DNA of 64,000 nt from Thermodesulfobacteriota bacterium (GTDB lineage Bacteria; Desulfobacterota; GWC2-55-46): the NCBI GenBank assembly GCA_030583865.1, contig CP129479.1:2504819-2568818 (forward strand). Reading direction: 5' to 3'. This document shows, in pieces, positions 8,908 to 49,518 of the stretch; position 1 is the first letter of the stretch; the number at the start of each line of letters is the position of its first letter. Made by a program: the position numbers and the translations under genes. The notes beneath the pieces were generated by a model. It saw only the letters and a list, made by a program, of their open reading frames with translations. It was not told the origin of the DNA and ran no database searches.

Positions 8908-9743
8908 AGAAAATAATCCTGGCGGCGGCGCTCTCCCTCATGGCCGTCTTTGCCGTCTCACACGGAGGACCTGCAATGGCGGAAGGAGCCAAAACCGGAA
9001 ACATAGATTCGATTACCGAGAAAGCCTGGGCGAGCCTTGCAAAGAAGAGGATCTACTTCGGGCACCAGTCCGTGGGGAACAACATCCTGGATGGCATATC
9101 CGACGTCATGAAGGAGCGCCCCTCCGTAAGGCTCACGGTCTCCGAGACAAGCGACCCGCGCGCCTTCGGAGGCCCGGTCTTCGCGCACTCGAGGGTCGGG
9201 AAAAACCAGGACCCTCTCTCAAAGAACATGGAGTTCGCCAGGTTCGTGGAGGCAGGCATAGGCGGAAAGGCCGATTTCGCCTTTTTCAAATACTGCTACA
9301 TCGACATAAATTCGGGCACGGACGCAAGGACGCTCTTCAGCGAGTACCGGACAACTCTCGCTGCGCTCAAGGCGAAATACCCGGAGACCACGTTTATCCA
9401 CGTCACGGTCCCCGTGACCGTCGTCCAGACGGGCTGGAAGGTAACGGTCAAAAAAGTCATCGGGCGGCCCATCGGCGGGTACGCGGATAATATCAGGCGT
9501 AATGAATTCAACGAGCTGCTTTTGAAGGAATACTCAGGGAAAGAGCCCGTCTTCGACCTTGCTGCAGTTGAATCCCTTGCCCGGGGCGGCGGGAAGACCG
9601 GCTTCACCGCGAACGGGCGGCATTACCTTTCCATGACGCCGGAATACGCCAGCGACGGCAGGCACCTGAACGAGAGGGGCAGGAAGGCCGTTGCAGAGGA
9701 GCTGCTCGCGTTCCTTGCGGACCTTGCCGCCGGAAAGAAATAG
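8904..9743 (+). CDS. Secreted SGNH/GDSL-like hydrolase family protein of unknown substrate
   Basis: A 279-residue protein with a signal peptide (MKKIILAAALSLMAVFAVSH, cut near AMA-EG). The C-terminal DGRHLNERG resembles SGNH block V, with a D-x-x-H pair. Block I is atypical (YFGHQSVGNNIL) and no clear GDS serine is visible, so the hydrolase assignment is tentative. Such domains act as esterases or O-acyltransferases on sugars. It starts inside the exosortase stop (ATGA overlap), so it is translationally coupled and probably works in the periplasm with exosortase or on the EPS. Its TAG stop is the first triplet of MITE copy 1. Confidence 0.6.
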   Translation: MKKIILAAALSLMAVFAVSHGGPAMAEGAKTGNIDSITEKAWASLAKKRIYFGHQSVGNNILDGISDVMKERPSVRLTVSETSDPRAFGGPVFAHSRVGKNQDPLSKNMEFARFVEAGIGGKADFAFFKYCYIDINSGTDARTLFSEYRTTLAALKAKYPETTFIHVTVPVTVVQTGWKVTVKKVIGRPIGGYADNIRRNEFNELLLKEYSGKEPVFDLAAVESLARGGGKTGFTANGRHYLSMTPEYASDGRHLNERGRKAVAEELLAFLADLAAGKK

Positions 9744-9897
9744 CAGGGTGTTGAAAACACCCTGCCATGCAATCCACGTATGTATTGCCGACTTGCGAAG
9801 AGTATCCAAGCCGGGCAACTTGTGAGGCTTGGGCAGATTCATTCCGGGCAAGCCGTGGTCGAAAAAGCCCAGGAAGGACTTTTTGAAAATCCTGACC
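9741..9897 (+). repeat. MITE-like repeat, copy 1
   Basis: A 157-bp copy of a four-member family. It begins with the TAG stop of the SGNH gene and ends 5 bases before the FemAB ATG. The left end forms a hairpin (GCAGGGTGTT, loop GAA, AACACCCTGC). Further inside are a GCAATCC/GGATTGC-type arm, a GGCTTGG...CAAGCC arm and a paired AAAAGCCC/GGACTTTTT region. The right end (AATCCTGACC) is degenerate against copy 4, with CC where TA is expected. It carries no gene. Confidence 0.85.
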
Positions 9898-9901
9898 GGT
9901 C

Positions 9902-10942
9902 ATGAGTGGGCTTGAGGTCATAGTCTGCGGTCCGGAGCGGGCACGCGAATGGGACTCCTTCCTGGCCGGGAGGAGCGACTCGTCCTTTTACCACCTTTTC
10001 GGCTGGAAGGCCGTTAACGAGGAGAGCTTCGGGCACAGCACCTTTTTCCTCGCCGCGATGCGGGACGGCAGGATGACAGGGGTATTCCCCCTCGTTTACA
10101 TCAGGAGCCGCGTTTTCGGGCGGATCCTCTGCTCCATGCCCTTTGTAAACTACGGCGGCCCGTCCGCCGCTGACGGCGAAGCAGAGGCCGCTCTCCTTGA
10201 GCGGGCCGTTTCAATTGCCGGCGGGCTCAAGGCCGACTACATGGAAATACGGTGCATAAGGAGGCTCCCCGGGGACCTCCCCGCAGGAGAGCACAAAGTG
10301 AGCCTCACGATAGAGCTCTCCCCTGGCGCGGACGCGCTGTGGAACGGGCTCAGCACGAAGCAGCGCACGAACGTGAGAAGGGCCTATAAGAACGGCCTCG
10401 ATGCGCGCGCAGGCGGAATAGACCTGCTGGACGGCTTTTACGCGCTCTTTACCGAGAGCTGGAGGGACCTCGGCACACCGGTCTACAATATCGACTATTT
10501 CAGGCGCATCCTCCGCGAGTTCCCTGACAAGACCCGCATATTCCTTGCGTGCATGAAAGACGGCACGCCGGTCGCCGGCGCGTTCAACGGGCATTTCAAC
10601 GGCACGGTCGAGGGGATGTGGGCGGCCTCGCCGGCCCGCTACCGCCAGCTTCAGGCCAATTACGTATTGTATTGGGAGATGATAAAAGACGCCTGCGAGA
10701 AGGGCTTCACCAAATACCATCTCGGGAGGTCCACGGCTGACTCCAGCGGAGAGGCTTTCAAGTCCAAGTGGAACGCCTCTCCCACCCAGCTCTACTGGCA
10801 CTACCACATGAGGAACAGCGGCCCACTGCCGGGCCTTAATACCGGGAACCCTAAATACCGCATGGCGATAAACGCGTGGAAGCGCCTGCCGGTCCGCTTC
10901 GCGAACCTCATAGGCCCGCTCTTTGCGGGGCAGATACCCTGA
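9902..10942 (+). CDS. FemAB-family protein, XrtA/PEP-CTERM system-associated
   Basis: A 346-residue tandem GNAT-fold (FemAB/BioF2-like) transferase. The signature near the C-terminus (KYHLGRSTADSSGEAFKSKW) and the MWAASPARYRQLQANYVLYWEMI segment match the FemAB proteins that accompany exosortase A. Relatives transfer amino acids from aminoacyl-tRNA to peptidoglycan; the acceptor here may be a sugar or lipid of the EPS. The ATG comes straight after MITE copy 1, and the nearest purine-rich ribosome site (AGGAAGGA) sits inside the element about 24 bases upstream, too far for normal spacing. The insertion may therefore have changed its translation. Confidence 0.88.
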   Translation: MSGLEVIVCGPERAREWDSFLAGRSDSSFYHLFGWKAVNEESFGHSTFFLAAMRDGRMTGVFPLVYIRSRVFGRILCSMPFVNYGGPSAADGEAEAALLERAVSIAGGLKADYMEIRCIRRLPGDLPAGEHKVSLTIELSPGADALWNGLSTKQRTNVRRAYKNGLDARAGGIDLLDGFYALFTESWRDLGTPVYNIDYFRRILREFPDKTRIFLACMKDGTPVAGAFNGHFNGTVEGMWAASPARYRQLQANYVLYWEMIKDACEKGFTKYHLGRSTADSSGEAFKSKWNASPTQLYWHYHMRNSGPLPGLNTGNPKYRMAINAWKRLPVRFANLIGPLFAGQIP

Positions 10943-10946
10943 GCCG

Positions 10947-12149
10947 ATGAGACGCCTTGCCCCTTCCGGAACGCCGGTCAATATGCGCGACCTTGCCGCC
11001 TGCATAGGCGGGGCCGCGTCGCCAAAGAGGACGCTAGAAGATTTCAGGGCCGCCGTATGCTCAAAGTTCAACGTCAGGCACTGCTTTTTCGCCTCATCGG
11101 GCCGAGCCGCGCTATGCGTGCTCCTTGAGGTCTTCAGGGGGCTCGCCCCCGGCAACCGGGACGAGGTCGTCATACCCTCGTACACCTGTTATTCCGTGCC
11201 CTCTACCATCGCAAAGAGCGGCCTCAAAGTGCTTGTGCGCGACATAGACCCGGAAACTCTCGATTACAGCATCCCCGGGCTCAGGGAAACTGACTGGAAG
11301 AGAGTCCTTTGCGTCATTACCGCGAACCTTTACGGCCTCCCGAACGACCTGCCGGAGATAAGCCGCATCGCAAAGGAGAACGGGGCTTTCCTTATAGACG
11401 ACGCCTCGCAGTGCATGGGAGGCATGGTCGGGAGCCGTTTTTCAGGGACCTTCGGGGACGCCGGGGTCTTCAGCCTCGACAAGGGGAAGAACATCACCTC
11501 CATGCAGGGGGGCATCATAGTCACAGACTCGGATGAAATAGCCTCGCTCGTCGGGAAGAGGGTCGCGGCCCTCCCCTCGCCCCCGGCCACGAGCGTCATT
11601 GCCTCTTCCATGAAGCTCATGGCGTATGCCGCGTTCCTCAACCCGAGGATGTACTGGCTCCCTGAAAGCCTGCCGTTTCTCAACCTCGGCACGACGATAT
11701 ATACGACCGAGTATCCGGTTGAGGCCTACAGCTCGCTACTGGGCGGGTTCGGGGCCTCGCTTTTCAGGAGGTTCGACGAGATAACAGCGGCGCGGGCCGG
11801 TAACGGGCTCGCTTATGACAGAGCCCTGGCCGGAGTGAAAGGGCTTGAGCGGATTTCGGCAAAAAAAGGTTCGAAGCCGGTCTATCTCCGCTACCCGGCG
11901 CTGGTCAGGGACAAAGGCAGGCGCATCTCCATGCTCGCGAGGCTCAAGGAGAACGGCATAGGCGCGACGGCCTCCTTCCCCCGCTCCGTAATAGACCTCG
12001 AAGAGATAGGCGGCATACTCAATAAGGCCGGGAGCTCGGGAAAGAACGGACGGGACGTGGCGGAAAGGATAATAACGCTCCCAACGCACCCGTTCGTAAC
12101 CGGAAAAGATATCGAGAGGGCGGTTTCGGTCCTGAAAGGGACCGCATAG
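10947..12149 (+). CDS. DegT/DnrJ/EryC1/StrS family PLP-dependent aminotransferase
   Basis: A 400-residue fold-type I aminotransferase of the sugar-aminotransferase family. Seen: the SSGRAAL phosphate-binding turn, VVIPSYTC, DDASQCMGG with the PLP-binding Asp, and the Schiff-base lysine in FSLDKGKN (about Lys179). Members usually transaminate a nucleotide-linked keto-sugar, giving an amino sugar. The ATG at 10947 follows the FemAB stop by 4 bases; an in-frame TTG at 10923 is less likely. The histidine usual next to the lysine (SFHxxK) is replaced by SLD, so it belongs to a divergent subgroup that may use another substrate. Confidence 0.85.
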   Translation: MRRLAPSGTPVNMRDLAACIGGAASPKRTLEDFRAAVCSKFNVRHCFFASSGRAALCVLLEVFRGLAPGNRDEVVIPSYTCYSVPSTIAKSGLKVLVRDIDPETLDYSIPGLRETDWKRVLCVITANLYGLPNDLPEISRIAKENGAFLIDDASQCMGGMVGSRFSGTFGDAGVFSLDKGKNITSMQGGIIVTDSDEIASLVGKRVAALPSPPATSVIASSMKLMAYAAFLNPRMYWLPESLPFLNLGTTIYTTEYPVEAYSSLLGGFGASLFRRFDEITAARAGNGLAYDRALAGVKGLERISAKKGSKPVYLRYPALVRDKGRRISMLARLKENGIGATASFPRSVIDLEEIGGILNKAGSSGKNGRDVAERIITLPTHPFVTGKDIERAVSVLKGTA

Positions 12150-12151
12150 CA

Positions 12152-13216
12152 ATGGATATACGCGTCGCGACCCGCATCGAGGACATCGGCATATCTCCCG
12201 AAGAGTGGAACAGGCTTCTTTCCGGGAGCGAGACGAATACCGTCTTCCAGACCTATGAATGGTTCAGGTCGTGGTGGGACGTCTTCGGCAAGGAAAACCG
12301 GCTATTCCTCGTATCCGTATTCGCACCTCAGGGAGACCTCGCCGGCATAGTGCCTCTCATGCTCTCGTCCCGTTCGGGCAGAAGGACCGTCAGGTTCATA
12401 GGAGACGAAAAAGCGGATTATTGCGACATTATCAGCGGGCCGGAGAAGCGGAAGACCATCGAATGCGTGGTGGAGGCGCTCATTCTCAATAAAGACGAGT
12501 GGGACTGCATCTCTTTGAGGAATATCCCGGAGGACTCCATTACGTGCGCGGAACTGAAACGCATATCACAGAAAGCGGACATGCGTACGATAACGAGCCA
12601 GATATCATGCCCCACTCTCTTGATAGCCGGCCGGAAAGAGGACGCAGGCAGGATACTAGGGAAAAAGACCTTAAGGCGCCGCTTCAATTACTTCAAAAAA
12701 TGCGGCGAGCTGGCCTTCAGGCACATACGGGATGAGGACGAGGCGCTCCGGCGCCTTGAGACCTTTTTTGAGCAGCATATAAAAAGGAGACAGCTCGCCG
12801 GAGACAAGAGCCTTTTTTCAGACCCGCGGAACAGGGAGTTCTACGCAAGGCTTACGAGAGGGCTTCTCGGCAAGGGCTGGCTCCTCTTTTCGGCTCTCGA
12901 ATTCAACGGGTCGCCCATAGCATTCCATTTCGGCTTCGATTACGGCTCGAGGGTCCTATGGTACAAGCCTTCGTTCGATATCGAATTCTCCCGGCGCTCA
13001 CCCGGCCAGGTCATGCTGATGCACCTGATAAATTACGCAATTGAGAACGGGCGGGCGGAGCTCGACTTCACTATCGGGAACGAACCGTTCAAAAGCCAGT
13101 TCACAAACCACGTGCGGATGAACACACAGTTGAACCTTTACAGGAAAAATCCGGCTTACCTTATCGACCTCTCAAAGCATTACATCCTGAAGTCCGTCAA
13201 AAAGACCAGGAAATGA
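12152..13216 (+). CDS. CelD/BioF2-like GNAT acyltransferase
   Basis: A 354-residue protein of the CelD/BcsL acetyltransferase family. Seen: an N-terminal half with FQTYEWFRSWWDVFG and a GDEKADYCDI segment, then the BioF2-like GNAT domain with LRRRFNYFKK, FEQHIKRRQ and FTIGNEPFKSQFTN. These enzymes are thought to acylate sugar chains in cellulose and EPS loci. It begins 2 bases after the aminotransferase stop and overlaps the next gene by 4 bases. The next protein carries the same kind of domain at its C-terminus, so two related transferases are made side by side. Confidence 0.82.
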   Translation: MDIRVATRIEDIGISPEEWNRLLSGSETNTVFQTYEWFRSWWDVFGKENRLFLVSVFAPQGDLAGIVPLMLSSRSGRRTVRFIGDEKADYCDIISGPEKRKTIECVVEALILNKDEWDCISLRNIPEDSITCAELKRISQKADMRTITSQISCPTLLIAGRKEDAGRILGKKTLRRRFNYFKKCGELAFRHIRDEDEALRRLETFFEQHIKRRQLAGDKSLFSDPRNREFYARLTRGLLGKGWLLFSALEFNGSPIAFHFGFDYGSRVLWYKPSFDIEFSRRSPGQVMLMHLINYAIENGRAELDFTIGNEPFKSQFTNHVRMNTQLNLYRKNPAYLIDLSKHYILKSVKKTRK

Positions 13217-15363
13217 ATAGCATGAGAGTAAGCATCATCATACCTACCTACAACAGGGCCCGCCTGGTCTGCCTTGCCATAGACAGCATACTGGCGCAGG
13301 ACTACACGGACTACGAGATAATCGTGGTCGACGACGGCTCGACCGACGGGACCTCAAAGGCTCTCGAAAAATATTCCGGGTCCATACGATACATAAGGCA
13401 GGAGAACAGGGGCTTCGGGGCGGCAAGGAACCGCGGCCTTGCCGAGGCCAAAGGGGAATACCTGGCCTTCCTGGATTCCGACGACCTCTGGACCGCCGGA
13501 AAGCTCTCCATTCAGGTTGAGATAATGGACCGCTTGAGCGAGACGGCGTTCGCCTTCTCGGATTTCACGATATTGAAGCCCTCCGGCGACCTTATAAGCG
13601 AAGGGCTCCGGACGTGGCACAAGAGGAAGACGCCCTGGGAAGAGATCTACTCGAATAAAATAAGCTCGCACGCGCTACTGACGCTGCCCTTAAGCGGATT
13701 CGACATCTATACCGGGAACATATACCGGCAACTCCTCGAGGAGCCTCACGTATTGCCGAGCAGCGCGATAGTCCGCCGGAGCATGCTCAAGCCCGGGATA
13801 GTCTTCACGGTGGGCGACCCGCTTTACGCGGACTGGGATTTCTTCGCCAGGCTCGCCAGGGACCATACAGTTTGCTTTCTCGATACCGCAACGGCCATAA
13901 ACAGGAGCCATGACGACCCGGTGAGGCTCACGACCAACTGCGGCACCCGCAAGACGGCGGAATGCAGGCTATCCCTGATAGATAGGGTGTGGAAGAAGGA
14001 CGCCGAGTTCATGGGACTGCACCGGGAGCTGGTGGAAAATATCGAGGCGGCACAGCTTAAAATCGTCGCCACCCAGCTTCTACTCGAACGGAAGACGCCA
14101 GAGGCGAAGGACGCGCTTAAAAAGATTTCAATTCTGGACAAGGGGTCGGGCGCCACACGACTTCTCAAGTTTTTTGCCTACAGCCCCGGAGGACCAGCAG
14201 CGCTTACGGCGGCAAGAGGATTAAGGAGACGGATTCGGGGGAAGTCAGCCTCCAGGGCTCTGATGGAAAGCGCCTCATTTAAAACAGAGGTCATAGCCGG
14301 CCCTGAGGGCATGCGCGCCATCTCGGAGGAATGGGATTCCCTCGCAGCCCGATACAAGAGCCCTCTTGCGAGCCATGACTGGGCCCTCTCCTGCGCGGAG
14401 GCCTTCCATGACCTGATGCCCACGAGGGTGCTCCTGGTACGGAATAGCGGCAAGGCGGCGGCAATAGCCCCGCTCGGGTTGACGGGCGGGGTTTTAAAGA
14501 GGCTCGAGTTCCTCGGATCACCTTTTCTCTCGGAGCCAGGAGCCCTCCTCCTGGACGAAAACGAGAGCACAAGATCCGCCATCTTCAAGGCGCTCTCAGA
14601 TACGGGATATCCGGCCCTTCTCAGGCGGCTTCCGGCTTCGGAGGCGCTTGAGGCTTTCAGGGAGAAGTATACCGCAGGCTGTGTCTGCATAAAGAGCTCC
14701 GCGCCTCCCGCGCCTTTTGCCGCGGTCGGGAAGGACTGGTACGGTTTCCACGGCGGGCTCTCCCCGAAGCGCAGGTACGATCTCAGGAGGGCGAAAAAAA
14801 GGGCTGAGGAGCACGGCAGGGTTTCGGCGAACATATACTGCCCTGAGCCCTCCGGGCTCGATCGCGAACTCGAAAAGGTCTTCCGGGTTGAAGCGGCAGG
14901 ATGGAAGGGCCGGAACGGCTCCTCCATGCTGCACAATAAAAGGCTCGGCAGTTTTTTCCGCGCCTACTCGGGGCGGGCCTGCGGGGCCGGCATACTGAGA
15001 GTATGCACGCTCGATATCGGCGGGCATACGGCCGCCGCGCAGCTTGCAATCGAATCCGGCGAAAGCTTCTGGGTCCTCAAGATAGGCTATGACGAGAATT
15101 GGGCGCGGTGTTCACCCGGCATCCAGCTAACGTACGAGTGCATGAAGTATGCGTTCATGAGGAACCTCGTCTCTTATGAGTTCCTCGGCACTATCGAGCC
15201 CTGGCTTAAGCCTTTTGCAAGCGGCAGGCGCGAGCACATTAACGTTTCCATCTACCCGCGCTCCCTTCCCGGCATACTGGCATTGGGTAAGGACGCGCCG
15301 CGCCATGCCGCTAAAAAACTCCTCGACCGCCGCCTGCAGGACGAGGCGCTCTCACAGGAGTAA
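13213..15363 (+). CDS. Glycosyltransferase family 2 - CelD-type acyltransferase fusion
   Basis: A 716-residue two-domain protein. Residues about 1-330 are a GT2 glycosyltransferase: VSIIIPTYNRA, VVDDGSTDGTS, the DSDD metal-binding motif and a late DWDFFARL. Residues about 355-716 are a CelD/BioF2-like GNAT domain: ISEEWDSLA, LSPKRRYDLRRAKKRAEEHG and VEAAGWKGRNGSSML. The frame is continuous, so this is a true fusion. It may add a sugar and then acylate it, or tie the two steps together. It overlaps the upstream CelD gene by 4 bases and ends 3 bases before the deacetylase. Confidence 0.87.
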   Translation: MNSMRVSIIIPTYNRARLVCLAIDSILAQDYTDYEIIVVDDGSTDGTSKALEKYSGSIRYIRQENRGFGAARNRGLAEAKGEYLAFLDSDDLWTAGKLSIQVEIMDRLSETAFAFSDFTILKPSGDLISEGLRTWHKRKTPWEEIYSNKISSHALLTLPLSGFDIYTGNIYRQLLEEPHVLPSSAIVRRSMLKPGIVFTVGDPLYADWDFFARLARDHTVCFLDTATAINRSHDDPVRLTTNCGTRKTAECRLSLIDRVWKKDAEFMGLHRELVENIEAAQLKIVATQLLLERKTPEAKDALKKISILDKGSGATRLLKFFAYSPGGPAALTAARGLRRRIRGKSASRALMESASFKTEVIAGPEGMRAISEEWDSLAARYKSPLASHDWALSCAEAFHDLMPTRVLLVRNSGKAAAIAPLGLTGGVLKRLEFLGSPFLSEPGALLLDENESTRSAIFKALSDTGYPALLRRLPASEALEAFREKYTAGCVCIKSSAPPAPFAAVGKDWYGFHGGLSPKRRYDLRRAKKRAEEHGRVSANIYCPEPSGLDRELEKVFRVEAAGWKGRNGSSMLHNKRLGSFFRAYSGRACGAGILRVCTLDIGGHTAAAQLAIESGESFWVLKIGYDENWARCSPGIQLTYECMKYAFMRNLVSYEFLGTIEPWLKPFASGRREHINVSIYPRSLPGILALGKDAPRHAAKKLLDRRLQDEALSQE

Positions 15364-15366
15364 GCA

Positions 15367-16386: not shown

Positions 16387-16392
16387 AAATAC

Positions 16393-17586: not shown

Positions 17587-17589
17587 TCA

Positions 17590-19490: not shown

Positions 19491-19491
19491 G

Positions 19492-20307: not shown

Positions 20308-20312
20308 AAGAG

Positions 20313-22123: not shown

Positions 22124-22136
22124 GGGGGCGGCGGGG

Positions 22137-29722: not shown

Positions 29723-29727
29723 GCGCC

Positions 29728-34004: not shown

Positions 34005-34096
34005 ACATTCACCTTTTGACCTTTTTATAGCATTTCCGGCGTTTTTGTTCAGTAATTTTTGTCACATGGAATTGTCCCTGAGGCTCGATTGAAAAC

Positions 34097-36202: not shown

Positions 36203-36217
36203 GGCTTTTTTATTGAA

Positions 36218-37585: not shown

Positions 37586-38907
37586 TGTCGCGAAATTTCA
37601 CGAAGCTCGCAGGCTTGATAAAAGACAAGAAGGCCCGCGTAGGGATTATCGGGCTGGGCTATGTGGGGCTGCCGATAGTGCTCCGTTTCTGCGACGTGGG
37701 GTACAGGGTCACCGGCTTCGACGTCGACCCTGAAAAGGTCCGGCTTTTGAGAAAAGGCAAGTCTTATATAAAGCATCTCCCTTCGGGCCTCATATCCAGG
37801 CTGGTAAAGGGCAGAAATCCCTCTTTCAAGGCCACGACCGACATGTCGGAGCTTGCCGGGATGGACGCCGTCATAATATGCGTGCCCACCCCGCTCTCTG
37901 ACAAGCGCGAGCCCGACCTCTCTTATGTAGAATCCACGGGCGCCGAAATAGCCAAACATCTCAGGCCGGGCCAGCTCGTCTCCCTCGAATCTACTACCTA
38001 TCCCGGGACGACCAGCGAACTCCTCCTTCCCATGCTCGAGGCGGGCGGGCTACGGGCGGGCAAGGACTTTTTCCTCGTCTTTTCGCCCGAAAGGGAGGAC
38101 CCCGGCAGGGTGGACTTCACCATAAAGACCACCCCCAAGATAGTCGGCGGCATAACCGCGAAATGCTCTGAGCTCGGCTCTGCCCTGTACTCCAAGATTG
38201 TCGACAGGGTTGTGCCCGTCTCCTCCACCCAGGTCGCTGAGATGACCAAGCTCCTCGAGAACATCTACAGGAGCGTCAATATCGCTATGGTGAACGAATT
38301 GAAGATGCTCTGCCACAGGATGGATATAAACATCTGGGAGGTAATCGAGGCTTCCAAGACCAAGCCCTTCGGCTTCCAGGCCTTTTACCCTGGCCCGGGC
38401 CTGGGCGGGCACTGCATACCCATAGACCCCTTTTATCTTACCTGGAAGGCCAGGGAGTACGACTTCTCGACCCGGTTCATAGAGCTTGCCGGGGAGATCA
38501 ACTCCAACATGCCCTACTACGTAGTCACTAGGGTAATGGAGGCGCTCAACGAGCGAGGAAAGAGCCTCAAGGGGTCGAAACTCCTGGTCCTCGGCATCGC
38601 ATACAAGAAGGACGTGGACGACCTGAGGGAGTCGCCGTCTTTAGAGCTCATCAGGATACTCAGGGAGAAAGGGGCGGAGGTCGACTATAACGACCCGTAC
38701 CTCCCGCTGGCGGTCAGCCACAGAAGGCACTTCAGGATGCGTTCGACCCCGCTTACGGAGGCGAATATCGGCAAGTACGACTGCGTGCTCATAGCGACCG
38801 ACCATTCGTGCTACGATTACAGGTGGATAGCGAAAAAGAGCCGGCTCGTGGTGGACACGAGGAACGCTATGGCCGGACTTAAGAGGCGGAATATAATAAA
38901 GGCCTAG
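37585..38907 (+). CDS. Nucleotide-sugar dehydrogenase (UDP-N-acetylglucosamine 6-dehydrogenase type, TviB/WbpA-like)
   Basis: A 440-residue dehydrogenase of the UDP-Glc/GlcNAc/ManNAc family, oxidising C6 to a uronic acid with NAD. Seen: IGLGYVGLP (NAD loop), CVPTPL, ESTTYPGTT, FSPERED, and the catalytic Cys in GPGLGGHCIPIDPFYL. ATG 37585 has AAGGAG 6 bases upstream; an upstream TTG is less likely. Its partner epimerase is at 39079, as in TviB/TviC pairs that make UDP-GalNAcA. Its TAG stop is the first triplet of MITE copy 2. Confidence 0.9.
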   Translation: MSRNFTKLAGLIKDKKARVGIIGLGYVGLPIVLRFCDVGYRVTGFDVDPEKVRLLRKGKSYIKHLPSGLISRLVKGRNPSFKATTDMSELAGMDAVIICVPTPLSDKREPDLSYVESTGAEIAKHLRPGQLVSLESTTYPGTTSELLLPMLEAGGLRAGKDFFLVFSPEREDPGRVDFTIKTTPKIVGGITAKCSELGSALYSKIVDRVVPVSSTQVAEMTKLLENIYRSVNIAMVNELKMLCHRMDINIWEVIEASKTKPFGFQAFYPGPGLGGHCIPIDPFYLTWKAREYDFSTRFIELAGEINSNMPYYVVTRVMEALNERGKSLKGSKLLVLGIAYKKDVDDLRESPSLELIRILREKGAEVDYNDPYLPLAVSHRRHFRMRSTPLTEANIGKYDCVLIATDHSCYDYRWIAKKSRLVVDTRNAMAGLKRRNIIKA

Positions 38908-39059
38908 CAGGTGTTGAAAACACCTGACAAGCAATCCACGATGGATTGCCAAATTGCGAAGACTAATCCAAGTCAGGCGATTTGTGAGGCCTGGACGGAT
39001 TCATTCCGGCCAGGCCGTGGTTGAAAAAGTCCAGGAAGGACTTTTTCGAAATCCTGATA
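38905..39059 (+). repeat. MITE-like repeat, copy 2
   Basis: A 155-bp copy beginning at the TAG stop of the dehydrogenase and ending in CCTGATA. The left hairpin is CAGGTGTT, loop GAA, AACACCTG. Inside are the GCAATCC...GGATTGC arm, the GGCCTGG...CAGGCC arm and AAAAAGTCC...GGACTTTTT. Flanking TA is present on both sides, and removing the element leaves GCC-TAG-GCATGG, with the TAG stop intact. The epimerase ATG follows 20 bases later with its own ribosome site outside the element. Confidence 0.88.
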
Positions 39060-39078
39060 GGCATGGAAGGGGGCTTTG

Positions 39079-40035: not shown

Positions 40036-40058
40036 CACGCCCTGCGTGCCGGAGAGGG

Positions 40059-40823: not shown

Positions 40824-40866
40824 GTGTATTGGCTCCATTTCAGGACTTATGATGTCATTACAACAA

Positions 40867-40883
40867 AGCAACATTTGTGCCAA
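40867..40883 (-). promoter_or_regulatory. Sigma-54 promoter of PEP-CTERM gene A
   Basis: On the - strand the sequence reads TTGGCAC-AAATG-TTGCT, matching the -24 (TGGCAC) and -12 (TTGC) elements of RpoN promoters at exact spacing. The -12 side lies 44 bases from the start codon. PrsR, the sigma-54 activator encoded at 36218, is the obvious regulator. The 307-base gap 40824-41130 also holds the upstream motif at 40954 and the promoter region of prsT. Confidence 0.85.
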
Positions 40884-40953
40884 GGCCATTCACGGCAAAA
40901 AAAGCTTGTGCGTTCAGGGCTTTAGTGAGTCCTTGCATCGCAATTACGAAAAG

Positions 40954-40972
40954 ATGTAAAACAACCTGACAG
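40954..40972 (-). promoter_or_regulatory. Shared upstream motif, candidate PrsR site (gene A)
   Basis: The + strand reads ATGTAAAACAACCTGACAG, identical in 18 of 19 bases to the motif at 44837. It lies 70 bases upstream of the -24 element, the normal range for a sigma-54 activator site. Here it runs into a small palindrome, AACCTG-A-CAGGTT. It is between gene A and prsT, so could affect both. Confidence 0.65.
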
Positions 40973-41130
40973 GTTCGGGGCAATATCGACGTGATTGCCC
41001 AATCCTGTTCTCTTGTTTTTTCAGCAACTTAAACGTCTGCACCCTAAACGGTGTAAGGAACTTTTACAGTGAAGCCGTGCAAGGTGCCGTGAGAGCTTCG
41101 GCTAAATTTCGCCATCCAAGGAGAATTCAG

Positions 41131-43410: not shown

Positions 43411-43488
43411 ACGAATGAACCGGGGTTTGTGACTATCCTGGAGAGAAAATCCCGCGAGCAATGCCCCGGAATCCCGGAAAAGCCGACA

Positions 43489-43522
43489 AAAAAAACCGTC
43501 CAGCAAACTGGACGGTTTTTTT
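43489..43522. terminator. Bidirectional rho-independent terminator
   Basis: A perfect hairpin, CCGTCCAG-CAAA-CTGGACGG, flanked by 7 A on the left and 7 T on the right. It works in both directions: it ends prsT on + and the PilZ gene on -. Confidence 0.9.
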
Positions 43523-43562
43523 ATTATAGCAGGAGAGCCAGCAAAAAAACGCCGACCTCCCT

Positions 43563-43919
43563 TTAGACGAATTTCAGCCCGGCCCTAGCAGGCCCCCCTC
43601 CAAAGCTGGTCTTCCAGACTACGATTGCCTTTGCCTGCAGGTCAAAATCATCGACCGCGACCCTGAAGGTATCTCCCACCGGTATATCGTCCATTGCGAG
43701 GACGCCTATCCCGCGCTCGCATATGTCAACTACCTTGGCCCTTATGCTTCCCTTTTCAGCGGTGAGGACGCACTCCTTGGCCACCCTTGCCCTTATGTCC
43801 TTCCTTTTATCCCGCCCCTCGGATTTGCCTTCGAAGCCGCAGTAAGGGCACCTGGCAGAAGTTGAATACAAAGCCGTATAGAAGGCGCTTTTGCACCTGG
43901 GACAATCATGTAATTCCAT
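43563..43919 (-). CDS. Small PilZ-domain protein with N-terminal zinc ribbon
   Basis: A 118-residue protein. Residues 6-27 carry two CxxC pairs (CPRC...CPYC), a zinc ribbon. The rest fits PilZ: the RxxxR motif as RKDIR and the second motif as DICERG, where the usual DxSxxG has Cys for Ser. PilZ domains bind cyclic di-GMP; this change may weaken binding. It lies 38 bases downstream of PEP-CTERM gene B and may be read from the same sigma-54 promoter. The terminator at 43489 closes it. Confidence 0.75.
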   Translation of the reverse strand: MELHDCPRCKSAFYTALYSTSARCPYCGFEGKSEGRDKRKDIRARVAKECVLTAEKGSIRAKVVDICERGIGVLAMDDIPVGDTFRVAVDDFDLQAKAIVVWKTSFGGGPARAGLKFV

Positions 43920-43957
43920 TATTACCCGAGGCTGAAATTAATGCGACTTGAAGCCTG

Positions 43958-44704
43958 TCAGCTCCTCTTTTTTCTCATGCGGCCGTGCACATAGAAGCCT
44001 ACGAGGCCGCTTCCGAGGAGTATGAGGGTGCCGGGCTCAGGCACCTTCCTTGAAGACTCCGCATCGTGCGAGAACGGGGCAAACATGGAGATATCGATGT
44101 CGCCACCCCTTTTAACCTTCGTGTTGTAAAGGTCGAAGTGGAGGACATAGTCGGAGGCAAGCCGGGTGGTGTCGATTGAGAATGAAACGTAATACATGAG
44201 GCCGTTTTCAGTGTCGATTGTCCCTGTGATAGCCCGGTCCTGGGTATTGTACCTGGCGGTAGTGTCGTTCCCGTCGAACTGGAACTCGTGCTCGTAGAAG
44301 TAGGTCGGGAAAACGCCGTGGGGCGCCAGGTCGCCTCCGTCGAAGGTGTTATAGTACTCCTCGACTGGCGGGGTCCCGTAATACATGTCAGAAGTTACAT
44401 TGTAGCTTGTCCCGTTGAGGCTGAAAGACCCCAGGTCAAAGCCGGCCGGGTCATACTCGAGCGACGGCAGGACAGCGACCGAGAGATAGAACGAATCGCT
44501 CAAGAGGTTATAGTTATTTGTGCTCAGGAAGGCGTAAAGCGTGAAGGGGTCGGAGTTGGCCACTATAGTCTCTGTTGTGAAATCATAGCTCCCCCCTTCT
44601 ATATCGAGCTGCAGGGCAGGGACCGCATGGCTTACGGTCGGCTTGAACCCCAGCATCAGAACGGCGGCCACGGCCAGCATGGAATATTTTATCTTGGCAA
44701 GCAT
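43958..44704 (-). CDS. PEP-CTERM sorting domain protein B
   Basis: A 248-residue paralog of protein A. Signal peptide MLAKIKYSMLAVAAVLMLGF, cut near SHA-VPALQ; body starting LQLDIEGGSYDFTTETIVA; C-terminal VPEPGTLILLGSGLVGF with basic tail RMRKKRS. The cores share YGTPPxxE and the segment before the anchor (FSHDAESSRK). ATG 44704 has GGGGGAAG upstream; a longer frame to 44782 would run through the promoter and is rejected. Anchored to or released from the envelope by exosortase A. Confidence 0.93.
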   Translation of the reverse strand: MLAKIKYSMLAVAAVLMLGFKPTVSHAVPALQLDIEGGSYDFTTETIVANSDPFTLYAFLSTNNYNLLSDSFYLSVAVLPSLEYDPAGFDLGSFSLNGTSYNVTSDMYYGTPPVEEYYNTFDGGDLAPHGVFPTYFYEHEFQFDGNDTTARYNTQDRAITGTIDTENGLMYYVSFSIDTTRLASDYVLHFDLYNTKVKRGGDIDISMFAPFSHDAESSRKVPEPGTLILLGSGLVGFYVHGRMRKKRS

Positions 44705-44748
44705 GTTCTTCCCCCTTTTAGATGACTCCACGTTAGCTTTTAGTAATA

Positions 44749-44765
44749 AGCAACCGCCGTGCCAA
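44749..44765 (-). promoter_or_regulatory. Sigma-54 promoter of PEP-CTERM gene B
   Basis: On the - strand: TTGGCAC-GGCGG-TTGCT. This is the full RpoN -24/-12 consensus (TGGCACG-N4-TTGC). The -12 end is 45 bases before the ATG, almost the same as in gene A. Confidence 0.9.
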
Positions 44766-44836
44766 TCAGTCCTTTCTTCCAAAATTAAAACAATTTCAAG
44801 CCGTTACAAAAAGGAGGGCGCTTCCGCATAGGATAT

Positions 44837-44855
44837 ATGTAAAACAAGCTGACAG
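44837..44855 (-). promoter_or_regulatory. Shared upstream motif, candidate PrsR site (gene B)
   Basis: The + strand reads ATGTAAAACAAGCTGACAG, differing by one base from the copy at 40954. It lies 71 bases upstream of the -24 element (70 in gene A). The surrounding bases are not otherwise alike, so this is not just a leftover of gene duplication. Confidence 0.65.
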
Positions 44856-44976
44856 AAGCACGGGGCCGAGCAATGTATTTTGCAAGATTTTTTTTAAAAA
44901 TTTCAAGGCCTTATACCTTGAACGCCGCAGCGGCTGTAAAGAAAGCTTACACGGACTCCAAAGTAATCTCCGCCCC

Positions 44977-45561
44977 TCACTCCGCATGCGCACGACAGGA
45001 TGATAGCCAATCCTCTGGAATAAAACCTTTACCTGCGAGATGCTTGAGGATAAGCCCTACTCCCTCTTCGGTCGTCAGCTGGTCCGTCCGTATATGAACT
45101 TCAGGATTGTGAGGGGCCTCATATGGGTCGTCAATACCAGTGAACTGTTTTATCTCGCCCTTGCGTGCTTTCGCGTACAGGCCCTTTACGTCCCTTTCCT
45201 CGCAGACCTCGACCGGACAATCCACAAAGACCTCGATAAAGGCGCCCGCCCCGCCGGCGTGCTCTATCATCTTTCTCACCTCACTCCTCACCTCCCTATA
45301 TGGCGAGATGGCCGAGACCAGGTTCGGGACCCTGTGCTTCGTAAGTAGGTGCGCTACCCAGCCTATCCTCCTGATGTTCGTATCCCTGTCCTCCTTGGTA
45401 AAACCGAGCCCCTTTGAAAGGTGCGTCCTTACGATGTCGCCGTCAAGTATCTCTATATTGGTGATGCCGTTTTCCTGAAGCTTGTGGTGAAGGAGGTTTG
45501 AAAGCGTCGTCTTGCCCGCGCCTGAAAGCCCCGTGAACCAAATCGTATAACCCCGCTGCAT
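44977..45561 (-). CDS. cysC: Adenylylsulfate kinase
   Basis: A 194-residue APS kinase: phosphorylates APS to PAPS, the sulfate donor. P-loop GLSGAGKT at residues 11-18; [30 protein letters not shown]; and [22 protein letters not shown] are all family signatures. No ATP sulfurylase is nearby. With the sulfotransferase at 21233 it suggests sulfated EPS. A 218-base gap upstream holds only a small CCCGGT/ACCGGG hairpin and a short tandem CCATACCGTC repeat. Confidence 0.93.
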
Positions 45562-45779
45562 AAAACCTCCTCGCTTTGTTTATTTCAGATGAATGTATGC
45601 CGCTTTCGACCAGCCTTGCGCGCAACTCCCGGTGAGATCAACCGGGCTTGAAGACCATGCTTCAGACTTCCCGCTCACTGCCATACCGTCCCCATACCGT
45701 CCCATGATAAGTCTTATCGCAGAGCCAGTCCAGCTCCGTCTTCGCACCTTACTCCTTTGAAGGCCTTGCACCTCGACAC

Positions 45780-46316
45780 CTAAGCACCCGGCTTCTTCCT
45801 GACATGAGAAAGTCTCATGTCGACGTCATAAAGCTCCGGGGCGTCGAACCTCGTCTTCATCGAGAACTCCCTCGTTACGACGAGCGCGCCACCCCTCTCA
45901 AGGTGATGCAGGAGGTTCACCAGCTGGTTCAGGTCAACCCTTTCGAGCTTGACCTCGATCCCTGCTTCGGTGTAGCCGAGTGTTTCTTTCTCTCCGGCCT
46001 GCTTTATGGATACTATCGAAGACCTTGCACCGACCGCATCAGCGGCGCGCTCTATGACGGCAATGGCCGGCTGGTCTACTTTTGCATGGGCCTTTCTCAA
46101 AGCTTCCTCTATCCCGGCCTTTTTTCCGAGATACGCGGCCTCGAGCGCCCGGAAGCTCGAAAGCTCCTCTTTTTTCAAGGCTGCCTGCCTCTTTACCGCC
46201 GAATACCTCTCTATAGAGGCAAGCGCGCCGCCCATTGCGGCCACGAGGACCAGCACCGCGAGCGCGAGAGCGGGCCTTTGCCTGAGCCGCATGACTATAT
46301 CCGCCGTCCCGGTCAC
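45780..46316 (-). CDS. gspM: Type II secretion system protein GspM
   Basis: A 178-residue inner-membrane protein: a short cytoplasmic start, one membrane helix (ALALAVLVLVAAMGGALA), a coiled-coil stretch and a C-terminal ferredoxin-like domain with LNQLVNLLHHLERGGALVVTR, which fits GspM/PilO-type folds. It overlaps the gspL stop by 4 bases and is last in the - strand arm. GspM and GspL form the inner-membrane platform for the GspE ATPase. Confidence 0.8.
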   Translation of the reverse strand: MTGTADIVMRLRQRPALALAVLVLVAAMGGALASIERYSAVKRQAALKKEELSSFRALEAAYLGKKAGIEEALRKAHAKVDQPAIAVIERAADAVGARSSIVSIKQAGEKETLGYTEAGIEVKLERVDLNQLVNLLHHLERGGALVVTREFSMKTRFDAPELYDVDMRLSHVRKKPGA

Positions 46317-47629
46317 TCGCCGCCCTCCTTCATAGAGAGTGTGAATATTGCCCCTCCGCCGGCCTTTGCCTTGAGGTCCGTAAGGAGCACTTCCTTGAAC
46401 GCGCCGTTCTTCGAGAGCGCGTCCTTAAGCCCGTTCGCCGCCTCGAACGAGGCCGCCTCCCCCTTTGCGCTTATCCTCTCCTCCCCGACATGGAGCTCGT
46501 TTATGACTATCCCCGCACCCTTCGGCGCAGTGGCGGCGAGCCTCCTCATTACCTCGGCGGGCCGCACGCCTCCGAGGACGCGGGCCTCGCCGTCAATGAG
46601 CTTCATCTTCACTTCCATCTGGTAGAGCTCGTCAGATGCGCCGCCCTCCCCGGGGAAAAGGCCCAGATACGCCGACCTGAGGGCGCTCCTGTAGGAAGCT
46701 AGCTCGTCCGATGCGGCAAGGTATCTAATATAGAGGTCCGATATTCCCAAAATCGAGATGAGAGCGCACAGGAAAAGCGTTGCCCTCAGCTTTTTTCTTG
46801 CGGCGCTTTTCTCCTTCGTGTACTCGAACTCCCCGCGCCTTAAGTCCAGGGCAGACCCCGGAAGCCGCCTCCCCCTTGCCGTTAGAGAGAGGGCGTAGAT
46901 TGCCGCCATCCCCTCCATGCCTTCGGGCAGGCCTCCTTCCCGTACTTCCATATCAGGCATCGCGAGCTCACCGGGGCCGAACCCTATCGAATAGGCCCTG
47001 TCTATCGTAACCCCGCCGGAGCCCAATAGCTCGATATTGAGCCTCAGGGAATCTGTCCCGTTATAGGCATTGAGGAAAACGAGCCTACCCCCTTCTGAAA
47101 CGGAAAAAAACTCGGGGGTCACAAGGGCGGCGTACCCGCCCTCCTTCGAGAGCCTTTCCATGAGGGCCGGGGCCGCAAATGCCGCGGGGCCGGCCCAGCG
47201 CGGGTCCAGGCCAAGCCCGTTGAGCTCGGAAAGGCACTCTTTCAGAAGCGCCTTTTCAATGCCAACGGCAATTGCCCTGCCGCCTCCGAGCGGCAGGTTG
47301 TCGAATACGAACCCCTCCGCGTCAGACGGCAGAGAGCCCGCAAGCTCGAAGGGTAGTATCCCGTTTATCTTTTCGCGGTCCTCGAACGGGACCTCAACGA
47401 CCCTTATGCTTAAGAGCGCAGGGGAAAAGCTAAGGAAAAGAGCTCCTTTCAAGGCCCCTCCACCGGGGCCCTTCTGGAGGGCCGATACAAGTCGGGAGAG
47501 CGCGTCCCTCCTGCCTCCCGCCTGCGTAAAATGCTCGGAAGCCGAGGCCGCCCTCTCGCCAGGGGCGCTAAAGACGCAGCCCCTTACAGATCCGGGCGCG
47601 ATCTCGATTATCGCGAACTGGTCTTTCAC
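46313..47629 (-). CDS. gspL: Type II secretion system protein GspL
   Basis: A 438-residue protein with a PilM-like cytoplasmic domain (ILPFELAGSLPSDAEGFVFDN is the typical GspL/PilM segment), one membrane helix (LRATLFLCALISILGISDLYI) and a periplasmic PilN-like domain. The start is GTG 47629 with AGAGAGGG about 11 bases upstream, just outside MITE copy 3. It follows gspK after the element. It recruits GspE to the membrane. Confidence 0.87.
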   Translation of the reverse strand: MKDQFAIIEIAPGSVRGCVFSAPGERAASASEHFTQAGGRRDALSRLVSALQKGPGGGALKGALFLSFSPALLSIRVVEVPFEDREKINGILPFELAGSLPSDAEGFVFDNLPLGGGRAIAVGIEKALLKECLSELNGLGLDPRWAGPAAFAAPALMERLSKEGGYAALVTPEFFSVSEGGRLVFLNAYNGTDSLRLNIELLGSGGVTIDRAYSIGFGPGELAMPDMEVREGGLPEGMEGMAAIYALSLTARGRRLPGSALDLRRGEFEYTKEKSAARKKLRATLFLCALISILGISDLYIRYLAASDELASYRSALRSAYLGLFPGEGGASDELYQMEVKMKLIDGEARVLGGVRPAEVMRRLAATAPKGAGIVINELHVGEERISAKGEAASFEAANGLKDALSKNGAFKEVLLTDLKAKAGGGAIFTLSMKEGGE

Positions 47630-47645
47630 CTATTATGGCCCTCTC

Positions 47646-47797
47646 TATAAGGATGTTGAAGAAACCCTTCCCGGACTTTTCAACCACGGCTTGTCCGGAA
47701 TGAACCCGTCCAAGCCCCACTGCCCGGCTTGACAGTCTTCGCAATTTGGCAAATCCATGCGTGGATTGCCTGGCAGGTGTTTTTCAATACCCTGCTA
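47646..47797 (-). repeat. MITE-like repeat, copy 3
   Basis: A 152-bp copy in the same orientation as gspK and gspL. It begins with the TAG stop of gspK and ends in CCTTATA 17 bases before the gspL GTG. The hairpin at its start is partly decayed (GGGTATTG against AACACCTGCC). Removing it leaves TAG-AGAGGG, so the old gspK stop and gspL ribosome site would be adjacent. Confidence 0.85.
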
Positions 47798-48748
47798 AAG
47801 CCTTCTCCAGTAGAGGACGCCCTTTTCTGCCTCGAAGACCGCCTCTATCTCCCGCGAGACCTCGCCTGACGTGGCCCTCGAATGGACGCTGAATATCCGG
47901 CTCTCAACTTTTATGCCGTCCATGAGCCCGTAGCCTGCCTCCTCGAAACCCGGCACTTTCATTATTTCGGACCTGTCCCTGAAAGGCCTCTCCATCCTCC
48001 GCTTTATGAGGTTTCTGGCGAGCTCTTCGGTCATCTCATCCGAAAGGGCGAGCAGCACCTCCAATGGGGCGGTGTTCACGTTAATGAGCCCGTCAGTATT
48101 ATAGGGCGAAACAAAGGGCTTTAGCATTGAAAGCACCTCGGGCGAAAAGCCCTTTATCATCAGGAGCTCTCCAATGGAGCCCGGATACCCGTTCCTCGCC
48201 TCATAGGGTGATTTGAGCCTCAGGTAATGCTCAGGGCCCTCTGCCCCGTATGCCCTCGGCTGGTCGTCGCCGTCGATCCAGTCCGCCAGGGCGTCCTCAA
48301 GCCCTTCGCGGCCCTTTATCCCCAACCCTTCAAGGAGCCTTGAGAATACCGCGTGCGTCCTGCCGTTTTCGACACCGTTGGGGTAGACCGTCCGTAACGA
48401 GGCCTTTCCAAGCTCGTCATGCACCCTTACGACTACCGACGCCCCCCCTTCCGAGGCGGTAAAGAGGAGCCCGTCCTTATCAATCGCGATATTCGGCCCG
48501 GACTTGAGCATCTCTTTAAGGGCCTCTTGGGCTAGCTCGACCCCCTTGCCGGCCAGGAGAGCGGCCCTCTGTCCCTCCGCGAAATTCGAGGCCCTGGATG
48601 TGGAGACGTGCACCCTGTAGACGAACTCCGTCACGATAGCCGCGAGTACCGCGAGGATAACGAGCGCGGCTATAAGTACAAAACCGCCCTCCACCGGTCT
48701 CCGCACCCCGCTCACGGCGGCGCTCCTCTTCCGCGAGGGAGAGTTCAT
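47795..48748 (-). CDS. gspK: Type II secretion minor pseudopilin GspK
   Basis: A 317-residue minor pseudopilin. The prepilin leader ends at EGG and the mature start is FVLIAALVILAVLAAIV, with Ala where other pseudopilins have Glu5, as is normal for GspK. The body has ALADWIDGDDQPRAYGAEGPEHY, LKPFVSPYNTDGLINVNTAPLEVL, typical GspK. It caps the pseudopilus tip with GspI and GspJ. The ATG overlaps the gspJ stop (ATGA). Confidence 0.93.
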   Translation of the reverse strand: MNSPSRKRSAAVSGVRRPVEGGFVLIAALVILAVLAAIVTEFVYRVHVSTSRASNFAEGQRAALLAGKGVELAQEALKEMLKSGPNIAIDKDGLLFTASEGGASVVVRVHDELGKASLRTVYPNGVENGRTHAVFSRLLEGLGIKGREGLEDALADWIDGDDQPRAYGAEGPEHYLRLKSPYEARNGYPGSIGELLMIKGFSPEVLSMLKPFVSPYNTDGLINVNTAPLEVLLALSDEMTEELARNLIKRRMERPFRDRSEIMKVPGFEEAGYGLMDGIKVESRIFSVHSRATSGEVSREIEAVFEAEKGVLYWRRL

Positions 48749-49518
48749 CTTATCATGGTCCTCGAAAGGGCGGTAAACTCCCTTCCGTCCCTAAAGACCA
48801 CCCTGGCCCTTACGGCAAGGGGGAGCTTCTTTTCAAGTGTAGCCTCCCATGCGTTGGCCCAGGACGTGCCGTTACTGTAGCTCAACTCGAAAGCCTCGAT
48901 GCCGGAGAGCGCCTCCGAGACGAACCTTTCGCCTATAAGCGGGTTCCACGTCTCCCTGTAAAGGGCAAGCCCCCCTTCCCCATGCTTAGCGAAGTAGCCT
49001 ATTGCCATTAGGTCCGTGGAAGGGGCTACCCCCCTTTGAGGCCTTGATGAGAAAGATGAATAATATGTGAACTCCAGGGCAGAAGCCCCTGACCTCGTCT
49101 TCCCGGAAAAGGCGGAACGGGGATCTTCGGGGCTGAAGTACGCGGAGTTGACCTCGCCCGAAAGCCTATCAAGGAACATCCCGGCCTCCAGGTCCCTCTC
49201 GAGCGAACTACCGGTCCTTTCGCCCGCGCCGAGTACGCTCATGAGGACGCCGTAAAGCGAAAGGAGCGCAATAGAGCCGACAGCGAGCGCAACGAGCACC
49301 TCTATGAGCGTAAACCCGCTATTCCTAACAGGATGTTGAAAAAATCCTTCCTGGACTTTTTCAACCACGGCTTGGCCGGAATGAATCCGTCCAAGCCTTA
49401 CAAATTGCTCGACCTGGATAGTCTTCGCAATTTGGCAATCCATCCGTGGATTGCCAAGCAGGGTGTTTTTCAACACCCTGCTAATAAAAGGTATGGAGCG
49501 TAAGGCTCTTGGATTCAT
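48745..49518 (-). CDS. gspJ: Type II secretion minor pseudopilin GspJ with repeat-lengthened leader
   Basis: A minor pseudopilin: cleavage site NSG-FTLIEVLVALAVGSIALL and a GspJ-like body. Its frame starts at ATG 49518 inside gspI (MNPRALRSIPFI), then runs without a stop through 52 codons of MITE copy 4, and rejoins at RNSGFTLIEV. Without the insert the leader would be a normal 16 residues; with it, 68. Alternatives are an ATG (MDCQIAK) or a GTG (VVEKVQ) inside the element, leaders of about 42 and 17 residues. No start codon exists between element and cleavage site, so translation must begin in or before the repeat. Confidence 0.85.
   Translation of the reverse strand: MNPRALRSIPFISRVLKNTLLGNPRMDCQIAKTIQVEQFVRLGRIHSGQAVVEKVQEGFFQHPVRNSGFTLIEVLVALAVGSIALLSLYGVLMSVLGAGERTGSSLERDLEAGMFLDRLSGEVNSAYFSPEDPRSAFSGKTRSGASALEFTYYSSFSSRPQRGVAPSTDLMAIGYFAKHGEGGLALYRETWNPLIGERFVSEALSGIEAFELSYSNGTSWANAWEATLEKKLPLAVRARVVFRDGREFTALSRTMIR
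49326..49483 (-). repeat. MITE-like repeat, copy 4 (best-preserved)
   Basis: A 158-bp copy. Read on the - strand it begins TAGCAGGGTGTTGAAAAA and ends TTTTTCAACATCCTGTTA. The reverse complement of the end (TAACAGGATGTTGAAAAA) matches the start at 16 of 18 bases, including TA at each end. It has four internal hairpins: GCAGGGTGTT/AACACCCTGC, GGCAATCCA/TGGATTGCC, GGCTTGG/CCAAGCC and AAAAGTCC/GGATTTTT. Its first triplet is the gspI stop. Net insertion is 156 bp (52 codons). Confidence 0.92.

Follow-up and report, generated by a model that had tools for sequence, protein, structure and literature searches.

A family of small hairpin-chain repeats, probably non-autonomous mobile elements, with an NTAG-like target in a Thermodesulfobacteriota genome

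Among described bacterial repeats, ERIC (also RU-1) of enterobacteria and RUP of Streptococcus pneumoniae are, as presented in the sources cited here, the nearest in kind to the element reported in this work, but with TA duplications. This element, which we call family A, occurs in four copies in a window of 64,000 nucleotides (the whole stretch of DNA analysed; positions 2,504,819 to 2,568,818 of contig CP129479.1) from a Thermodesulfobacteriota bacterium whose genome, G000 in our numbering of genomes, is a single contig of 2.75 Mb. ERIC is described as a 127-bp repeat with TA ends and a TA duplication, its mechanism of transfer being given as not elucidated (PMC2229807, PMC2759123), and it resembles family A in length class, strong stem-loops, many intergenic copies and an occasional in-frame read-through (PMC2229807, PMC2759123). 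The other small mobile repeats covered in PMC2229807 compare with family A in the same way. The likeness is one of description only, and the flanks of family A agree beyond the TA that is duplicated in ERIC. RUP, of 107 bp, is linked to IS630-Spn1 and a TA duplication, and has inverted ends, TA in the target and many intergenic copies in common with family A (PMC2229807), whereas in our case there is no DDE_3 match in G000, the flanks agree beyond TA and five hairpins are present. On the other hand, IS5 duplicates the 4-bp sequence YTAR (PMC10359306), and YTAR-like duplications of 4 bp are found here, most clearly in a second repeat family (family B) and partially in family A. However, DDE_Tnp_1 is matched in none of 25 genomes, and family A prefers NTAG and one orientation.

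A further comparison is with the REP sequences, which have a GTAG foot, and their RAYT proteins. Family A likewise consists of extragenic hairpins with a TAG-like foot beside the first of them, in a genome with a RAYT-like gene, although this gene has a palindrome of its own (GTAGGGTGCGC..) and the presence of RAYT does not follow that of the element. No description of family A was found in the collection of open-licence papers searched, where five diagnostic sequence strings matched no paper, and an Rfam search of the window gave only a tRNA above the curated score and no match for the element. By the evidence reported here, family A probably represents small mobile DNA elements of the miniature inverted-repeat transposable element (MITE) type, non-autonomous, about 150 bp long, with five consecutive hairpins, an NTAG-like target and a duplication of about 4 bp.

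Dispersal and target site of family A

A search of G000 with a 165-bp query locates family A in at least 37 places at E<=1.7e-5, together with three left-end fragments; all 40 matches were fetched. The family is found in 17 of the 40 genomes searched, G000 included, and all five relatives of the same genus carry it. A-like elements also occur in metagenome-assembled genomes (MAGs) labelled Myxococcota (L244, L numbers being loci) and Gammaproteobacteria (L251) and, by right end and layout only, Desulfovibrionaceae. Two features of MITEs are observed: the copies are dispersed, alike in length and ends and too short to code for a transposase, and they are present or absent at orthologous places, which is the case for all four window copies as well as for others. 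An earlier note, made from the window alone, had located the four copies correctly, and its reading of a mobile multi-copy element with partial terminal inverted repeats and no coding role of its own is supported, as is a placement mostly at TAG-like sites. The ends that it gave for copy 4, GCAGGGTGTTGAAAAA and ACAGGATGTTGAAAAA, do agree at 14 of 16 bases, and the outer ends of the family share CAGGRTGTTGAAAAA.

Moreover, a scan for insertions and deletions between G000, G001 and G005 (filled versus empty sites), independent of any repeat family, yielded 64 pairs of 105-232 bp, 46 of them involving G000 and some insertions being seen twice. Family A accounts for 14 of these pairs and family B for 23; 27 match neither, many of them belonging by eye to a third family, C. 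Family B consists of repeats of about 160 bp starting CAGGCTGCTGAAAAAG (loci L165-L184, L102-L141 and L185-L223), and its exact 15-base end is found at no fewer than 36 places of G000. Family C consists of repeats of about 145 bp, GGCAACCTCTAAAAATT..AATTTTTAGAGGTTGCC, with one copy in the window at 50659-50804 and many in L102-L223; it is nearly palindromic, its orientation is arbitrary, and it gives 75 matches in 1.64 Mb of three genomes. Also, at one locus (L038, 1498-1525, compared with L097) G000 keeps the first hairpin of family A between two TTAG and G001 a full copy, being probably the result of an internal deletion.

The target site was approached by comparing the left and right tetranucleotides of families A and B with 5000 within-genome shuffles. 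In family A, base 1 agrees between both sides in 25 of 47 copies versus 14.8 in the shuffles (4/5000 as high), and the exact tetranucleotide in 14/47 versus 7.7 (18/5000). For family B, the agreement is found at base 4 (35/48 versus 21.8; 1/5000) and in the exact tetranucleotide (11/48 versus 4.5; 2/5000), base 1 agrees in 19 versus 13.4 (158/5000), and bases 2 and 3 are not above the shuffles. Clean duplications are seen in this second family (TTAA[..]TTAA with an empty site TTAA, TTAG[..]TTAG with an empty site TTAG), clear cases comprising TTAG, CTAA and TTAA, and its right flanks are CTAA in 10 and TTAG in 8 of 48 copies, with stop landings in both orientations. The right flanks of family A are ATAG in 15, TTAG in 14, CTAG in 5 and CTAA in 1 of 47. 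This agreement beyond TA favours a duplication of 3-4 bp over the TA of the IS630/mariner type. The duplication in family A is one that we infer statistically and not from clean cases; it would comprise at least NTA and probably NTAG, which falls short of proof. The 2-bp duplication of IS630/mariner type proposed in the earlier note is thus not upheld, since family A agrees before TA and family B after it, and no DDE_3 match is found in G000; that TA and nothing more is duplicated is at odds with the flanks, the evidence being the statistical one of their agreement. As for TA outside each end, the right TA is present in three of the four window copies, but the right flank of copy 1 reads ACCG.

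The empty sites give a mixed picture. Eleven of those of family A in relatives are readable, five of them with NTAG in at least one relative (copy 1, with CTAG in G005 and ATAA in the closer G001; copy 3; L013; L026; L043), five without TA in register and one unclear (L019, GTAT); the expectation of TA or TAG at the insertion point is therefore borne out in part. L014, L028, L036, L085, L089 (with only paralogous sites) and a decayed copy of G001 (C1:147623) were judged unreadable and left uncounted.

Several observations weigh against the reading of an NTAG-like target with a 4-bp duplication. The exact agreement of 4 bp is found in only 14 of the 47 copies of family A, its bases 2 and 3 agree no better than in the shuffles, and the excess at base 4 is slight (36 versus 32.9; 101/5000). 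For the 24 youngest copies, compared with cross-genome shuffles, base 1 agrees in 11 versus 7.3 (293/5000), a weak effect, and within-genome subfamilies could feign part of the flank agreement. One such subfamily comprises five copies in different surroundings (L009, L084, two copies in L085, and L087) with CTAT on the left and ATAA inside; their right flanks are ATAG in three and CTAG or ATTG in the others, which a plain duplication does not explain. Also, the empty sites without TA read CTGAG for copy 2, TCAG/TCGG for copy 4, CGAG/CGGG for L059, CTGA for L022 and, for a copy of G005, ACGG in both relatives. The target may be looser than NTAG, or else these sites changed later in the relatives, whose flanks are about 79-94% identical. 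Finally, for none of the six transposase families searched could a fit be demonstrated.

Hairpins and drift of the left flank

The fold was assessed in an alignment of 25 copies, among them L244 and L251 of the MAGs labelled Myxococcota and Gammaproteobacteria; from 78 full-length copies, 29 less than 90% alike were chosen, and L022, L023, L236 and L037 were left out. In the five consecutive hairpins 89.8% of the cells are paired versus 86.1% in shuffles (0/500), and 25 pairs are changed on both sides versus 11.2 (0/500), figures that are both favoured by a structure drawn on one member and by the relatedness of the copies. Sliding the partners by 1-3 columns lowers the pairing to 30-48%. By eye, the last hairpin has an A-stem-T shape. 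In the outermost helix, the four bases outside the left end, that is, the target copy, pair with four bases inside; with 75% of its cells paired this helix is the lowest of the ten, and all four of its pairs are doubly changed.

A comparison of the two flanks reveals a drift of the left one. The set used comprises 55 copies, 24 of 79 with decayed ends having been dropped, and at bases 3-4 its left and right flanks differ in 26 instances. Pairing with the inner arm is seen for the left base in 21 of these and would be found for the right base in 3, although one inner arm is common to the five CTAT copies and not all of these cases are independent. The right flank may show what the left flank once was. 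For example, one and the same insertion has ATAG outside and CCAA inside in G000 (L026), ATGG and CCAT in G001 (L090), and an empty site TTAG in G005; in this case, two changes mend two mismatches from opposite sides. As to the cause of the drift, we infer that the left target copy would form the outer end of the first hairpin after insertion, and that its bases 3-4 would then drift towards pairing with the inner arm through palindrome-templated mutation or selection on the fold. Palindrome-templated mutation would explain such a drift without selection. A choice of the target by pairing with the inner arm was rejected, given that L026 and L090 differ, that the left flank departs from the right towards the inner arm, and that beyond base 4 the pairing is not above the shuffles.

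Stop codons: targeting or survival

In all four window copies the left TA is that of the in-frame TAG of an upstream gene on the same strand, as the earlier note had observed, and this had suggested that the element is always placed at a TAG stop. Gene ends were called with a simple codon-score script of our own, not a published tool, which marks 82-88% of large stretches, and 93% of the window, as coding. In G000, 13 of the 35 left ends scored adjoin an in-frame stop (11 TAG, 2 TGA), and the rule does not extend to the genome, 22 of the 35 being without an in-frame stop on the same strand; L018, scored as not at a stop through an error of one base, and L003 and L026, whose right ends lie at a stop of the opposite strand, would raise the 13 to 16. 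The same one-base error affects a G001 copy of the copy 3 insertion. For all genomes with fetched loci the count is 24 of 89 (22 TAG, 2 TGA), a few insertions common to two or three genomes being counted more than once, and for 38 of the 89 left ends no gene of the same strand ends in the 300 bp upstream. In family B, 20 of 50 left ends lie at an in-frame stop (12 TAG, 5 TGA, 3 TAA), one of 51 copies having been dropped for too short a flank. For family C, the right end lies at the stop of an opposite-strand gene in 18 of 55 copies with both ends, and in 7 of these 18 the last base of the element completes TAG. Both families are also found at gene ends.

Whether these counts exceed chance depends on the null. 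In the within-gap null, the element is removed from each occupied gap and all NTAG/CTAN sites of the restored gap count as possible targets. Copies more than 600 bp from a gene (4/46 in A, 1/44 in B) were left out, and insertions common to two or three genomes were included, so that the copies are not all independent. The outcome is 14 of 42 family A copies at a stop versus 14.3 expected (8.1 + 6.2), and 12 of 43 versus 10.2 for family B. Within the window, copies 1 and 2 had only the stop as a possible site and copy 3 one of two; for copy 4 this null is poorly defined, the empty alleles overlapping at this place, and the caller, which missed the start of the type II secretion system (T2SS) J gene, scored it with a gap of 580 bp and 15 possible sites. 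The genome-wide trinucleotide null points the other way: 19 of 40 TAG-flanked copies of G000, G001 and G005 lie at stops, the expectation being 3.3 from the non-coding TAG sites in one 800-kb segment of G005 and about 9 by the ratio of the window itself (0.224). The within-gap null is trusted over this one because the caller misses genes, which inflates the gaps, and the genome-wide excess is ascribed, without proof, to undetected genes and to regulatory DNA in long gaps.

The pattern then fits, without proving it, an NTAG-like target and survival in crowded operons instead of a targeting of stop codons. Stop codons as the chosen target find no support in the within-gap counts (14/42 versus 14.3), nor do the four of four of the window hold as a general rule (13/35 in G000); the other possibility raised in the earlier note, that only such insertions survive within operons, fits these counts. 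Its further proposal that each site was TAG before insertion stands for copy 3 (TAG in G004) and for copy 1 as judged by G005, but the closer G001 has TAA at the place of copy 1, G005 has TGA at that of copy 2, and copy 4 had no stop (CAG in G005, CGG in G004). Where the stop at the site is TAG or TAA, insertion would leave a stop in place, because the left target copy remains in front of the element. Moreover, the fixed orientation of family A with respect to its target would explain that it follows the direction of the genes at TAG stops. At L013 (1496-1653), the left TAG, a stop in G005, is now GAG, and the upstream frame enters the element (frame by eye).

Copy 4 is an example of survival after insertion (Table 1). 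The upstream pseudopilin-like protein ends ..LTLHTFYQE in G005 and ..FTLHTFYRE in G004 and ..LTLHTFY in G000, where two codons have been removed by the element. The element adds a net 156 bp and leaves the T2SS J-like frame downstream open: the empty allele of G005 begins MRPKALRSIPFIRNSGFTFIEV, and in the filled allele PFI and RNSGFTLIEV are separated by 52 more residues, which places these ahead of the methylation motif. They lengthen the leader, which would be removed by the prepilin peptidase. A start codon inside copy 4 would also be possible. In G001 copy 4 is found as two halves at the ends of two contigs.

Table 1. Family A copies of the window with their flanks, and the reading frame that runs through copy 4
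Feature	Position	Strand	Description	Relatives
Copy 1 body	9744..9894	+	CAGG..CCTG, 151 bp	no copy at the orthologous place in G001, G005
Copy 1 left flank	9740..9743	+	ATAG; TAG is the stop of gene 8904-9743	
Copy 1 right flank	9895..9898	+	ACCG, without TA; junction CCTG-ACCG-GTCATG	
Copy 2 body	38908..39056	+	CAGG..CCTG, 149 bp	common to G001; missing in G005
Copy 2 left flank	38904..38907	+	CTAG; its TAG terminates the UDP-sugar dehydrogenase-like gene (end at 38907)	
Copy 2 right flank	39057..39060	+	ATAG	
Copy 3 body	47649..47794	-	CAGG..CCTT, 146 bp, right end divergent	common to G001, G005; missing in G004
Copy 3 left flank	47795..47798	-	TTAG; its TAG terminates the T2SS protein K-like gene 47795-48748	
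Copy 3 right flank	47645..47648	-	ATAG	
Copy 4 body	49329..49480	-	CAGG..CCTG, 152 bp, top-scoring window copy	missing in G005, G004
Copy 4 left flank	49481..49484	-	TTAG; its TAG terminates the pseudopilin-like gene 49481-49825	
Copy 4 right flank	49325..49328	-	TTAG	
T2SS protein J-like reading frame	48745..49518	-	open through copy 4; compared with the allele of G005, 52 additional codons precede the motif GFTLIEV	

Side observations on family B concern its loss and its neighbourhood. A family B copy of G001 (contig C1, about 70800; L188) has as its counterpart in G000 a site that reads TTTAGCAGGCTG, a remnant that suggests an imprecise loss of the copy. At L082 (about 1655), copies of families B and A are adjacent, the former adjoining the left end of the latter at its TTAG/CTAA.

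The mover and the rival explanations

Pfam searches at E<=0.001 covered six transposase families. DDE_Tnp_1 is matched in 0 of 25 genomes and DDE_5 in 0 of 17; DDE_3 (PF13358) in 3 of 25, none of them G000; Transposase_20 in 2 of 17; rve in 11 of 17, with two matches in G000 and none in G001 and G003; and Y1 in 15 of 25, G003 and G005 not being among them. The 18 fetched loci around DDE_3, rve and Transposase_20 genes, which cover 10 of the 27 rve places and one of the two in G000, contain no A or B end; an enzyme of the rve family could thus still move the element, even if rve is not matched in G001 and G003. Long insertions or distant pairs of A- or B-like ends were also looked for in 1.64 Mb of three genomes and none was found, and an autonomous parent with the same ends accordingly finds no support in this sequence or at the 18 transposase loci. 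In G001, a Transposase_20 (IS110-type) gene has a family C copy (L275, 2662-2801) at a distance of about 1 kb.

The Y1 protein of G000 is the RAYT-like gene, flanked by a different palindrome. At L152, this gene (179 aa) has flanking palindromes GTAGGGTGCGC..GCGCACC (1190-1330 and 1935-1962), a REP of its own. RAYT proteins are matched in 11 of the 17 carriers of family A and in 10 of the 23 other genomes, the match in G005 consisting only of pieces with stops. The carriers of family A without a RAYT match are G003, G006, G016, G018, G023 and G024, and G003, G023 and G024 are 77%, 74% and 82% complete, respectively. By this presence pattern and its own palindrome, RAYT is unlikely to be the mover.

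The rival explanations account for parts of these data. In a MITE of the IS630/mariner type, like the pneumococcal RUP, TA would be the duplicated target and the G of the element would rebuild TAG. The TA that flanks most copies, the partial inverted ends and the CTAT subfamily, in which the base after the left TA acts as an element base, all agree with this origin. It is nonetheless unlikely, considering that the base before TA agrees between left and right (25/47 versus 14.8), that G follows the right TA in nearly all cases, even away from stops, that no fixed orientation results from a TA target, which is symmetric, and that DDE_3 occurs in few genomes and in three loci without an A, B or C end. 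A single-strand element of the IS200/IS605 or RAYT-REP kind would have a folded end cut beside NTAG, with the inner arm pairing with the target and the right NTAG belonging to the element. The exact tetranucleotide of the target pairs with the inner arm in 16 of 55 copies versus 8.0 in shuffles (0/5000) and base 4 in 50 of 55 versus 36.9, which such a mechanism would produce. It would also account for the fixed orientation and for hairpins with compensatory changes; the tetranucleotides of several empty sites resemble, by eye, the left flank more than the right one, and a RAYT gene is present in the genome. However, left and right flanks agree above chance, and the pair L026/L090, with its empty site TTAG in G005, indicates that the pairing there arose after insertion. 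The uneven presence of RAYT (three of the six carriers lacking it being less than 85% complete), its other palindrome and Y1 loci without a family A copy also make this explanation improbable.

A role of the transcript, by which the element would be retained at stops because it works there in 3' end protection, RNA processing or attenuation between the genes of an operon, is suggested by the placement on the same strand after genes, by five covarying hairpins, the last of A-stem-T shape by eye, and by the genome-wide excess at stops. On the other hand, no excess is found within occupied gaps, copies are often present in one relative and missing in another, and 38 of 89 left ends follow no same-strand gene within 300 bp; such a role seems very unlikely to explain the pattern. 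Finally, chains of hairpins could move as a folded single strand by machinery not yet described, which we regard as quite unlikely. This would be in line with the frequent differences of families A, B and C between close relatives with no tested transposase family tracking them, with a first hairpin that takes in target bases by pairing, and with the A-like elements in the MAGs of other labels mentioned above.

In comparison with these, the reading of a MITE-type family with an NTAG-like target is preferred. According to it, the element would insert at short NTAG-like sites in one orientation, duplicating about 4 bp (at least NTA), moved by a cut-and-paste transposase of the DDE type acting in trans; it is because of the flank agreement alone that an enzyme of this type is proposed. 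In a gene-dense genome most other insertions would break genes, and many of the survivors would then be found at gene ends, following the direction of the genes. A target motif that contains a stop, together with selection against broken genes, can therefore mimic a targeting of stop codons in a single window. Moreover, the set of filled and empty sites for three repeat families makes the identity of their mover testable.

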